Shown here piece by piece: positions 1 through 2,158 of a DNA stretch of 40,128 nt. Under the pieces are notes generated by a model. That model was not told where the DNA came from. It searched no databases and saw only the letters and a program-made list of their open reading frames with translations. The stretch is from Clostridiaceae bacterium (lineage in GTDB: Bacteria > Bacillota > Clostridia > Oscillospirales > Acutalibacteraceae), in NCBI GenBank assembly GCA_016288315.1, contig JAEEYU010000011.1:1-40128 (forward strand), given 5' to 3'. Position numbers and translations under genes: made by a program. Numbering within the stretch: the stretch's first letter is position 1; each line of letters opens with the position of its first letter.

Positions 1-465
1 CTCAACGAAGGTTACCTTTTTCAGGTCAATGTTGTATCTTGTTCTGTTTGCGAAAAGCTCAAGTGATTTATCTGCGCCGTTAATAGAATCGAAAACATTG
101 TCAATGTGGTGGTAAATAATTTCGGCATTGAACGGTTTGTTCACAAAAGCGTATGGCTGCATCTCGACATATATCAGTTCACAGAGTCGGGCATCGGAGC
201 TGTCAAAAATAATTCTTGCGTCGGGAAATCTGCTTTTTGCGATCATGGCAAGCGGGATTCCGGATTCTTTGCCGAGAGCAACATCAATGAAAACAATGTC
301 ATAGGCAGTGTCGGTCATATTCATGGCGCTCAGTGTTTCTTCATAATTATGGGCGGTATCAATCAGAATATCAATGAAGTTTGCCGCCTCGTTGTATTTG
401 CCGCGGATTATTTTTACAAGACTTAATATGGCGTTATTGTCGCTGTCGCATATAAGAATTTTCAT
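1..465 (-). CDS. LytTR-family response regulator, N-terminal part (cut by window edge)
   Basis: The reverse strand encodes a protein beginning MKILICDSDNNAILSLVKII, preceded by a good CGGAGG ribosome-binding site 5 nt before the ATG at 465. It has the layout of a CheY-like receiver: an acidic pair near the start (ICDSD), the phospho-acceptor region DIVFIDVALG near residue 60, and a KPF switch motif near residue 113. After the receiver the chain reads NRTRYNIDLKKVTFVE, which is how LytTR DNA-binding domains start, so an AgrA/VirR-type regulator is inferred. The rest, and any partner histidine kinase, lie outside the window. The acidic pocket and KP motif are seen directly. The LytTR assignment rests on only a few residues. 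Confidence 0.75.
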   Translation of the reverse strand, partial: MKILICDSDNNAILSLVKIIRGKYNEAANFIDILIDTAHNYEETLSAMNMTDTAYDIVFIDVALGKESGIPLAMIAKSRFPDARIIFDSSDARLCELIYVEMQPYAFVNKPFNAEIIYHHIDNVFDSINGADKSLELFANRTRYNIDLKKVTFVE

Positions 466-900: not shown

Positions 901-928
901 TTGCAATATTTTTAATAATAATTATAAT
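901..928 (+). promoter_or_regulatory. Sigma-A-type promoter of the zinc-finger gene
   Basis: TTGCAA (901-906), 16-nt spacer, TATAAT (923-928). Transcription starting near 935 would give a leader of about 220 nt before the ATG at 1156, long enough to contain the hairpins at 946-960, 992-1036 and 1069-1110. Confidence 0.5.
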
Positions 929-945
929 AATAATTAACTTTATGG

Positions 946-1110
946 CGCTTGTGACAAGCGGGTGTAAAGGCAAATGAGTGGACAAAGCGAGGCCGTTTTA
1001 CAGCGGCAGCTGTGTTCGGAACATGCACAGCACGGCTTTTCGCAGAGACCAACAAAACTATTCAAAGATTGTTATATGCGTCCCTATGAGATTCCGGTTC
1101 CATATAACAA
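946..1110 (+). ncRNA. Structured 5' leader of the zinc-finger gene (unknown class)
   Basis: Three local hairpins can be drawn directly. The first is CGCTTG-TGA-CAAGCG (946-960). The second is GCCG/CGGC (992-995 with 1033-1036) enclosing GCTGTG/CACAGC (1009-1014 with 1026-1031). The third is TTGTTATATG/CATATAACAA (1069-1078 with 1101-1110), a perfect 10-bp stem around a 22-nt loop. The loop and right flank of the third hairpin are repeated in inverted orientation after the gene at 1981-2049. I cannot match the leader to a riboswitch class. It could be regulatory RNA, or one end of a small mobile element. Confidence 0.45.
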
Positions 1111-1136
1111 CAAAAATCACCGTTTGAAATTACGGT
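1074..1136 (+). repeat. Left inverted repeat flanking the zinc-finger gene
   Basis: Read on the opposite strand this block matches 1981-2049. Positions 1086-1101 are a perfect 16-nt inverted match to 2022-2037. Positions 1074-1083 are a perfect 10-nt match to 2040-2049, separated by 2 variable nt on both sides. Positions 1111-1119 match 2006-2014 (9 nt), and 1123-1136 match 1981-1993 with one gap and one mismatch. The hairpin stem around the conserved loop differs between the two copies but stays paired in both. Confidence 0.7.
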
Positions 1137-1155
1137 AAGAAAGGTATGGTTAACC

Positions 1156-1842
1156 ATGAAGAAAAGAATTTTAGCAATCCTCCTCGCAATCGCACTTCTT
1201 TCATCAGTTGCAGCTGTTGTTGCTTATGCAGCAGGCGGAACCTGCGTTAAATGCGGACAGGTTTTTACAACTGATGACGCATTTAATTCTCATATAGCAA
1301 CTTGTGACTATCAAAAATGTCCCTACTGCAATAATTATTATGGTCAAGCTCAAATTAATGATCATAAGGCAGCATGCGAAAAGAATCCTGCTAATGTAGC
1401 TCCTGCAAAGGAATACAAATGTTCAGAGTGCGGTCAGACCTTCGAATCGGCTGACGATCTCAAGGCTCACTATGAACAGCGTCACACTGAAAACACAAAT
1501 GCTATGCACTGCCCCTATGAAGGCTGCCATTATGTTGCTTTCAGCATCACGGACTACAACAACCACATCGCAGCCAACCATCAGAAGGACGGCGAACAGG
1601 TAACACCCAGAGATAACGTTCAGCGTTTCTTTGACAAGTATGTCATGGGTATCGGCCTCAACGTTGACACCAACTCCTTCTCATCTGTTGTTCGCGTATT
1701 CGCTTACATCACAGAAGTATTAATGTCAGTATTCACCGATTCAGGTGCTTCCGAAGTATTCCAGTTTGCAGGTGATTCAGGCGTTACATATTTCTTCGAA
1801 ACAATCGTTCCCCATTTCTGGTCAATTTTTACAGGCGCATAA
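1156..1842 (+). CDS. Exported protein with four zinc fingers
   Basis: 228 aa. Residues 1-26 are a clear signal peptide (MKKRILAILLAIALL..., cleavage after AYA). Four zinc-finger motifs follow: C30-x2-C33...H46-x3-C50; C55-x2-C58...H70-x3-C74; C89-x2-C92...H105-x4-H110; C119-x4-C124...H137-x4-H142. The first two are C2HC and the last two are classical C2H2. The C-terminal third (about 150-228) has no cysteines and is rich in aromatic and hydrophobic residues, ending FFETIVPHFWSIFTGA. RBS AGAAAGG lies upstream of the ATG. The gene has its own long leader and trailer and no operon partner. Zinc binding is inferred from spacing. A DNA-binding role is doubtful because the protein appears to be exported, so structural zinc sites or protein-protein contact outside the cell are more likely. 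No known bacterial family is recognised with confidence. Confidence 0.85.
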   Translation: MKKRILAILLAIALLSSVAAVVAYAAGGTCVKCGQVFTTDDAFNSHIATCDYQKCPYCNNYYGQAQINDHKAACEKNPANVAPAKEYKCSECGQTFESADDLKAHYEQRHTENTNAMHCPYEGCHYVAFSITDYNNHIAANHQKDGEQVTPRDNVQRFFDKYVMGIGLNVDTNSFSSVVRVFAYITEVLMSVFTDSGASEVFQFAGDSGVTYFFETIVPHFWSIFTGA

Positions 1843-1859
1843 TTAGTTTTTAATTTACA

Positions 1860-1974
1860 TATACGGGTAGCCGTTATTTGCAAAGTCGGTCTGAGGCTCT
1901 GCTGCAAGGCGGAAACCGGTTACCTCGGAACGACCGATGTGAAATAAATCGGCAACAAACCCCGATGCTGCCCG
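1860..1974 (+). ncRNA. Structured 3'-region RNA candidate (unknown class)
   Basis: Immediately after the zinc-finger stop codon several nested stems can be drawn: CGGGTAGC (1864-1871) with GCTGCCCG (1967-1974); TTATTT (1874-1879) with AAATAA (1942-1947); GTCGGT (1885-1890) with ACCGAT (1933-1938); CTGAGG (1891-1896) with CCTCGG (1923-1928), the last two separated by a 4-nt bulge. An alternative pairing, ATACGG (1861-1866) with CCGTAT (1982-1987), competes with the outer stem. The element is followed by the right inverted repeat and a terminator, so it is probably transcribed as a 3' UTR or a separate small RNA. I do not recognise the class. Confidence 0.5.
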
Positions 1975-1980
1975 GATTAA

Positions 1981-2049
1981 ACCGTATTTGAAAACACTGT
2001 GCACATGATTTTTGCTGATACGGAACCGGAATCTCATGTGGACGCATAT
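1981..2049 (-). repeat. Right inverted repeat flanking the zinc-finger gene
   Basis: Inverted partner of 1074-1136. Here the conserved core GGAACCGGAATCTCAT-N2-GGACGCATAT sits in the loop of a different, longer hairpin: GCAAAAATGCACAGT (2051-2065) pairs with ACTGTGCA-N5-TTTTTGC (1997-2015 region). Loop conserved, stem changed but still paired: this is the pattern expected of selection on structure, or of a mobile-element end. Confidence 0.7.
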
Positions 2050-2085
2050 AGGCAAAAATGCACAGTGAAAACAAAATAAGGATTC

Positions 2086-2114
2086 AGCGGTGGTTCGACC
2101 ACCGCTCTTTTTTT
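2086..2114 (+). terminator. Rho-independent terminator of the zinc-finger unit
   Basis: AGCGGTGGT-TCG-ACCACCGCT, a 9-bp perfect stem with a 3-nt loop, followed by a run of seven T. It closes the transcript that contains the zinc-finger gene and the structured trailer. Confidence 0.85.
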
Positions 2115-2158
2115 ATTTATGCGGTCTGCGCAGCTTGTCCTTAGTTCTTTGCTTTGTG

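Follow-up and report, generated by a model that had tools for sequence, protein, structure and literature searches.

A conserved inverted repeat in the predicted leader and trailer of a zinc-finger mRNA resembles known 5'–3' UTR interactions

Introduction

Several bacterial RNAs pair their 5' and 3' untranslated regions (UTRs) with each other, over lengths that are short where the cited passages state them: 7 nt in RNAIII of Staphylococcus aureus (PMC7821165), a 7-nt motif in icaR mRNA of the same species (PMC3868564) and 14 nt in hbs mRNA of Bacillus subtilis (PMC7821165). The icaR motif is an anti-Shine-Dalgarno sequence that is key to the interaction and absent from four other staphylococci named in that text, which also shows RNase III acting on the duplex (PMC3868564). 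In hbs, the interaction protects the mRNA from RNase Y (PMC7821165). The toxin-encoding hok and aapA mRNAs are described as closed by a long-distance 5'–3' interaction in their full-length form and as carrying metastable hairpins while nascent, with a sequestered Shine-Dalgarno and an antisense RNA present (PMC6733600).

Here we analyse a locus in a 40,128-nt stretch of DNA from a Clostridiaceae bacterium (the window), where an inverted repeat flanks a gene for a putative exported zinc-finger protein. Computation shows that the two arms are complementary, fold as hairpins, are conserved in four species and prefer a shared duplex, and that the 3' UTR holds a structured domain, T1. A sequence-only reading of this DNA had entertained both a small non-autonomous mobile element and an mRNA whose leader and trailer pair; our results support the pairing and do not support the mobile element. 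We propose that the two arms together make up an RNA switch within one mRNA, a reading that we hold to be fairly probable.

An inverted repeat flanks a zinc-finger gene

A single gene is framed by two complementary arms, one in the 5' UTR and one in the 3' UTR of its inferred mRNA.

1073–1119, plus strand: leader arm of the inverted repeat (self-comparison and pattern search)
1156–1842, plus strand: gene for a 228-aa protein with a signal-peptide-like N-terminus, C2H2 fingers and a predicted helical C-terminal part (open reading frame, Pfam, structure model)
2006–2050, minus strand: trailer arm of the inverted repeat (self-comparison and pattern search)

The inverted repeats are real and lie far beyond chance. 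The main pair (1073–1114 with 2009–2050) spans 42 nt at 83% complementarity and is extended by 1105–1119 with 2006–2020. Compared without gaps, the 5' and 3' flanks reach a best complementarity score of 24, against a maximum of 14 in 3000 equally spaced pairs elsewhere in the window. The upstream block had been described as returning inverted downstream with perfect matches of 16, 10 and 9 nt, and this is borne out by blocks of 16 nt (GGAACCGGAATCTCAT, 2022–2037), 11 nt for the middle one (GGACGCATATA, 2040–2050) and 9 nt (CAAAAATCA, 1111–1119).

Each arm occurs once in its genome. When searched against the 2.15-Mb assembly (78% complete), the arms hit one another at E = 3.3e-8, and no third copy appeared among the 40 of 62 candidates scored there. 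A pattern search of the same assembly allowing up to three mismatches returned one forward and one reverse copy. The 16-nt core by itself, also at up to three mismatches, has 20 genomic sites besides both arms, against 3 for a backwards-pattern control. Simulated genomes with the dinucleotide make-up of the window yield 12–23 core-like and 3–10 control sites, so core-like sites are not enriched in the genome.

The description of the gene product as an exported zinc-finger protein also holds. The 687-nt coding region begins with a signal-peptide-like segment, judged by eye, and matches Pfam zf-C2H2 at E = 3.9e-9. The AlphaFold model is of low confidence (mean pLDDT 56), as is its prediction of a helical C-terminal part.

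Distribution among genomes

The repeat accompanies one orthologous gene in four species of the genus. We searched for the protein in 99 genomes, comprising 45 of the genus (the window's own included), 16 of the family and 38 of the order, and found matches in 32. Full-length orthologs number four: the window's own protein and those of genomes G013 (80%), G037 (70%) and G030 (61%). The other 39 matches are partial, at 23–42% identity. A search for the core pattern in the 45 genus genomes recovered the same four bearers and none else, with one forward and one reverse copy in each, and in all four both arms surround the orthologous gene in identical orientation. Within the genus, a leader model (R1) and a model of the 3' domain agree on these four, bar weak R1 matches (E 0.1–0.7) that we dismiss because chance gives as many over 45 genomes.

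The ideas of the earlier reading hung on whether other genomes carry the core and whether homologs of the gene lack the repeats. Three others do carry the core among the 45 genus genomes searched; as to the homologs, all four full-length orthologs have the repeats, whereas the distant paralogs lack convincing ones. The 39 weak protein matches resolve to 26 loci, of which 23 were taken and one dropped for its short flank. The remaining 22 show no convincing leader–trailer complementarity, scoring 8–13 against 638 swapped pairs with a 95th percentile of 11 and a maximum of 15. Three of them (L027, L037 and L048) reach 11–13 but are not counted as repeats, because 22 draws can give such scores.

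The exported proteins at loci L026–L051 in the genus genomes belong to a broad family marked by pairs of C2H2-like fingers. Several have a GAAAGGAATGGTTC-type start region in common, and several end in a hydrophobic tail preceded by what we take to be a PADTGS-like sorting signal. The locus also points to an exported zinc-finger protein family in uncultured relatives of Ruminococcaceae.

Searches further afield were negative. Covariance models of leader and trailer, run on 394 genomes drawn from the order, gave nothing convincing outside the window's genome: R1 matched there only, and the trailer model (R2) matches in L144 (E 5e-4) and L145 (E 0.009) are weak and read as ordinary terminator-like hairpins without the core. 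This draw tests spread beyond the genus only, because the three other bearers, absent from it, would have matched. At gathering score, the sole Rfam match in the window is a tRNA away from the repeats; at low threshold over 560–2300, every match fell below the cut-off. Viral contigs (searched by pattern and protein) and phage and plasmid collections held no match. A literature search of titles and abstracts, covering few subscription journals, returned no description of a paired-arm RNA or of this zinc-finger gene family.

Transcript architecture and conservation

A predicted promoter and terminator bracket both arms, and these consensus sites would place the transcription start near 935 and the transcript end near 2115. 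The resulting mRNA would have a leader of about 220 nt and a 3' UTR of about 270 nt.

901–928, plus strand: sigma-70-like promoter TTGCAA-16-TATAAT (consensus scan; TATAAT kept in all four genomes)
935–1068, plus strand: 5' part of the leader, less conserved (pairwise identity 43–81%)
1069–1110, plus strand: leader hairpin with stem UUGUUAUAUG/CAUAUAACAA and the repeat core in its loop (folding and conservation)
1119–1136, plus strand: second leader hairpin, ACCGU...ACGGU, directly 5' of the Shine-Dalgarno (fold prediction)
1137–1157, plus strand: Shine-Dalgarno AAGAAAGG (1137–1144) and palindrome ATGGTTAACCAT (1146–1157) overlapping the start codon, both unchanged across the four genomes
1864–1974, plus strand: folded 3'-UTR domain T1, closed by CGGGUAGC/GCUGCCCG (compensatory changes)
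1981–2067, plus strand: trailer with hairpin 1995–2067 and a candidate pseudoknot (folding and conservation)
2086–2116, plus strand: intrinsic terminator, a 9-pair stem followed by a T run

Both copies of the repeat fold with the core in a hairpin loop, as had been read from the letters. Folded without neighbouring hairpins, the leader hairpin stretch (1069–1110) scores z = -2.6 and the trailer hairpin stretch (1995–2067) z = -3.0 against shuffles; a trailer fold that includes the terminator reaches z = -5.4. One pair of the leader stem varies, from U-A to U-G, and in G030 as many as three pairs of the local trailer stem are lost. The possible trailer pseudoknot, CCGUAU (1982–1987) with AUACGG (2018–2023), varies in two of its six pairs in G030, both still wobble-paired. 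The 3' half of the second leader hairpin has an alternative predicted pairing with the start of the trailer.

Conservation along the transcript is highest in the two arms. From the leader hairpin to the start codon, between 81 of 87 and 87 of 87 positions are identical between species, and trailer identity runs from 75 of 87 to 85 of 85, in comparisons of four sequences from one assembly per species. For the same species pairs, four-fold degenerate coding sites agree at 54–70%; pairwise identity is 57–91% between stop codon and trailer, 33–77% in the terminator region and 59–78% in the 300 bases 5' of the inferred start. Windows of 30 nt contain 25–30 columns invariant in the four species inside the arms, versus 3–23 clear of them. 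Conservation sets in exactly where the leader hairpin begins and gives out near the end of the trailer hairpin.

This pattern suggests constraint on more than one structure. The outer half of the trailer stem (2051–2067) is also conserved, and in the predicted duplex only 2051 and 2053–2055 of it pair with the leader. Because this outer stem is kept despite so little duplex pairing, selection seems to act on the local hairpins and on the complementarity alike. The arms may also owe their conservation to something else, for instance to trans targets or to a protein.

Covariation in T1 is an independent sign that the 3' UTR works as RNA. Seven of its 34 consensus pairs have changed on both sides, a count that none of 500 shuffles matched, and sliding the partners by 1–3 columns leaves 0–2 two-sided pairs. 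The signal rests on few independent changes, because G030 supplies six of the eight two-sided cells and the window two. In the 5' part of the leader (935–1068), the RNAalifold fold has seven pairs changed on both sides, with a covariation term of zero.

Two further elements adjoin the arms. Opposite the leader, the minus strand at 1117–1138 reads as a terminator-like hairpin followed by a T-rich run, kept in all four genomes bar two loop bases in G030; it could be the end of an antisense RNA or a by-product of the repeat. Directly past the terminator, 2148–2197 is a short dispersed repeat of TGATTCTTCGCCTTCGGCTCAGAATGACA type, with 24 similar places of about 28–40 nt in the same genome.

The leader–trailer duplex

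Computed folds prefer a leader–trailer duplex over separate hairpins in all four species. The predicted duplex joins 1069–1136 with 1981–2055 through 58 pairs, 42 of them between the arms. Its energies are -68.8, -68.8, -65.9 and -65.6 kcal/mol, whereas the leader alone reaches -15.6 to -15.7 and the trailer alone -25.0 to -30.5 kcal/mol, about -41 to -46 when summed. Random pairs of same-size segments from the window (n = 2000) average -28.6 kcal/mol (sd 7.7), and the best of them reaches -60.9. In each of the four species, 42–57 leader–trailer pairs appear in the minimum fold predicted for the inferred transcript, although long-range folds of a translated mRNA are unreliable when drawn from energy alone.

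Sequence variation leaves the duplex largely paired. Five of the 58 pairs vary; four persist as wobbles and one (1098/2025) is broken in G030. Under random change, the chance of keeping at least four of five is 0.004–0.10, depending on transition bias, and the wobble-preserving changes are at most suggestive. Among the four sequences, no two-sided compensatory change occurs within the arms.

The duplex ends at 1136, just short of the Shine-Dalgarno (1137–1144), which it leaves uncovered. The predicted unpaired fraction of the Shine-Dalgarno is 0.31–0.84 in the full transcript and 0.69–0.83 in the nascent one; that of the start codon is 0.30–0.65 and 0.24–0.38, mostly paired in the nascent form. 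Since these figures differ between species, the folds do not settle the direction of the effect: they give no clear sign, and the modelled start-codon values point the opposite way.

Regulator and genomic surroundings

A response regulator gene lies divergent from the zinc-finger gene and is kept alongside it in the other bearers.

1–465, minus strand: gene for a LytTR-type response regulator, truncated at the window start and divergent from the zinc-finger gene (239 aa in G037)
668–732, no strand assigned: a pair of inverted GTAAAG-N7/8-CTTTAC sites with a spacing of 45 bp that may bind a regulator, at a promoter distance equal within 1 bp in all four genomes

The regulator matches Pfam LytTR at E 3.5e-19, and in the G037 ortholog a receiver domain scores E 3.3e-5, below the cut-off. 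Among the 45 genus genomes, close orthologs (57–85% identity) occur only in the three other bearers; any match at E <= 1e-8 occurs in 13, the remaining nine at 23–32%. Transcription of the zinc-finger gene is probably set by this regulator. AgrA binding sites are direct repeats in the cited description (PMC4227749), whereas the sites at 668–732 are inverted, so another factor may bind there.

The regulator and the zinc-finger gene form a unit, and either this unit as a whole or its surroundings have changed place. In G037 and G030 the two genes lie side by side in divergent orientation, flanked by a PfkB kinase gene and an HflX-like GTPase region; in G013 the outer neighbours are the same, and a contig break separates the two genes. 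The PfkB and HflX orthologs of the window's genome are found on other contigs, where similarity to the relatives ends near the expected unit start; the unit does not end at the repeats. G043, a near relative by PfkB (92%) with an incomplete assembly, is without the trailer in the 0.35 kb past PfkB and has no core match and no regulator ortholog. An in-frame TGA in PfkB relatives proved to be a natural stop near the end in both loci showing it (L132 and L138).

Upstream of the regulator in the window's genome lies a 511-aa coiled-coil-like gene (L109:12911–14443), whose N-terminus gives weak NUMOD/I-HmuI-like matches just below the cut-off. Window positions 1–324 reappear at the end of contig G000:C21 (L109), where the encoded protein is 99% identical and differs by one or more amino acids; either strain variants overlap in the assembly or this is a second copy. 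No transposase had been noticed at this locus, and our scan of 14 neighbour and cassette proteins likewise named no transposase or recombinase.

Proposed mechanism and alternatives

We favour a switch in which the two ends of one mRNA meet after synthesis. A single transcript from about 935 to about 2115 would carry both arms. At the nascent stage the leader would fold into its own hairpin, with the Shine-Dalgarno largely unpaired. Once the trailer is made, its hairpin loop would contact the complementary loop of the leader, and the loop pairing would spread into a long 5'–3' duplex that closes the mRNA on itself. The idea of a paired leader and trailer draws support from the promoter and terminator that bracket both arms, from conservation that peaks there and from the duplex in all four minimum folds.

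The outcome of closure that we infer is a shorter life of the finished mRNA. Long duplexes are classical substrates of RNase III, and our guess is that this one would be such a substrate. We favour a limit on mRNA life for that reason and because the duplex leaves the Shine-Dalgarno uncovered. The main alternative outcome would be protection of the 5' end, as in hbs.

The regulator and the divergent structured mRNA might together form an RNA control unit. Leader and trailer would have arisen by inverted duplication of a hairpin unit of about 70 nt, each evolving its own stem around the same complementary loop, and the RNA would be bistable between two hairpins and a closed duplex, perhaps acting on other mRNAs as RNAIII does. 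We regard this extended scheme as doubtful.

It is unlikely, in our estimate, that the trailer works as a 3'-UTR-derived small RNA, released or separately made, which pairs with the leader in trans in an OppZ/CarZ-like autoregulation. The terminator that follows the trailer, and the trailer hairpin whose loop shows the complementary core, would suit such an RNA, and matching loops suit bimolecular kissing, but the presence of both arms on one molecule makes pairing in cis likely. The predicted duplex, moreover, leaves the Shine-Dalgarno uncovered, and neither a processing site nor an internal promoter is in evidence.

A dual-function RNA of the RNAIII type, LytTR-regulated, long and structured, encoding an exported protein and pairing with other mRNAs through its conserved loops, has a slimmer chance still. 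The divergent LytTR regulator kept alongside, the structured domains at both ends and the 5'–3' pairing fit it, as does an arm conservation stricter than cis pairing alone needs, because changes of any kind are rare. However, the core-like sites outside the arms number what simulated sequence yields, and the coding region is 687 nt long, not that of a short peptide. Membership in an agr system also fails: the regulator has a LytTR domain but scores 34 bits against the AgrA model, whose cut-off is 400, and no agrB, agrC or agrD gene occurs among the 14 proteins scanned.

That the repeats act in DNA, whether by bounding an invertible segment for phase variation or as the termini of a non-autonomous transposon, we consider very improbable: a roughly 28-bp inverted repeat around an exported-protein gene looks like an inverton, the regulator–gene unit is placed differently in the window's genome, and the weak NUMOD-type matches lie upstream of the regulator, but the moved unit includes the regulator and has its boundaries away from the repeats, the outer neighbours are the same in three of the four genomes, no recombinase or transposase was found among the 14 proteins, and an inversion would exchange outer halves between the two conserved stems, disrupting both. 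An inverton would be expected to show an identical crossover core and both orientations; here the central two bases, read in the same sense, are CT in the leader and AC in the trailer in all four genomes, a mismatch that speaks against a common core, and a single orientation is seen in all four (one assembly per species). A MITE or IS relic would be expected in several copies per genome, and we found one in each; the lack of any match in the viral, phage and plasmid collections likewise speaks against a mobile element.

Comparison with known 5'–3' UTR interactions

As in icaR and hbs, complementary 5' and 3' UTR stretches occur here in one mRNA, taking the transcript as delimited by its promoter and terminator consensus. 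Where the icaR interaction turns on a 7-nt motif in the cited text, the window's mRNA offers 42 arm pairs, kept in four species and placed upstream of the Shine-Dalgarno. With hbs it shares 5'–3' UTR pairing in a Gram-positive; the hbs interaction measures 14 nt, and the cited passage mentions no paired hairpin loops, whereas both arms here lie in loops.

Other known RNAs share parts of this arrangement. As in the cited account of hok and aapA, the mRNA would be closed by 5'–3' pairing and would form hairpins while nascent, both predicted here; it differs in encoding an exported zinc-finger protein and in having no antisense RNA identified. Assignment to the hok/aapA type fails on the Shine-Dalgarno, which the duplex leaves uncovered; the 228-aa protein with C2H2 fingers is not small. 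RNAIII and agr, as described in the cited passages (PMC7821165, PMC4227749), likewise combine a LytTR regulator and divergent promoters with a 5'–3'-paired structured RNA that encodes an exported product; their pairing spans 7 nt, and agrBDC genes were absent from the proteins scanned here. OppZ and CarZ are 3'-UTR RNAs that act on their own transcript (PMC7398697, PMC7821165), and in those sources they are processed small RNAs, whereas the window offers a candidate trailer only.

The window's case thus resembles known 5'–3' UTR interactions in how it would work, while being longer than those with a stated length and kept across species. Through natural variation and swapped arms, such a case would allow tests of how the ends of an mRNA meet and what this does to translation and decay. 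What sets it apart is the combination of 42 arm pairs, their presence in four species, the position of both arms in hairpin loops and a message for an exported zinc-finger protein.
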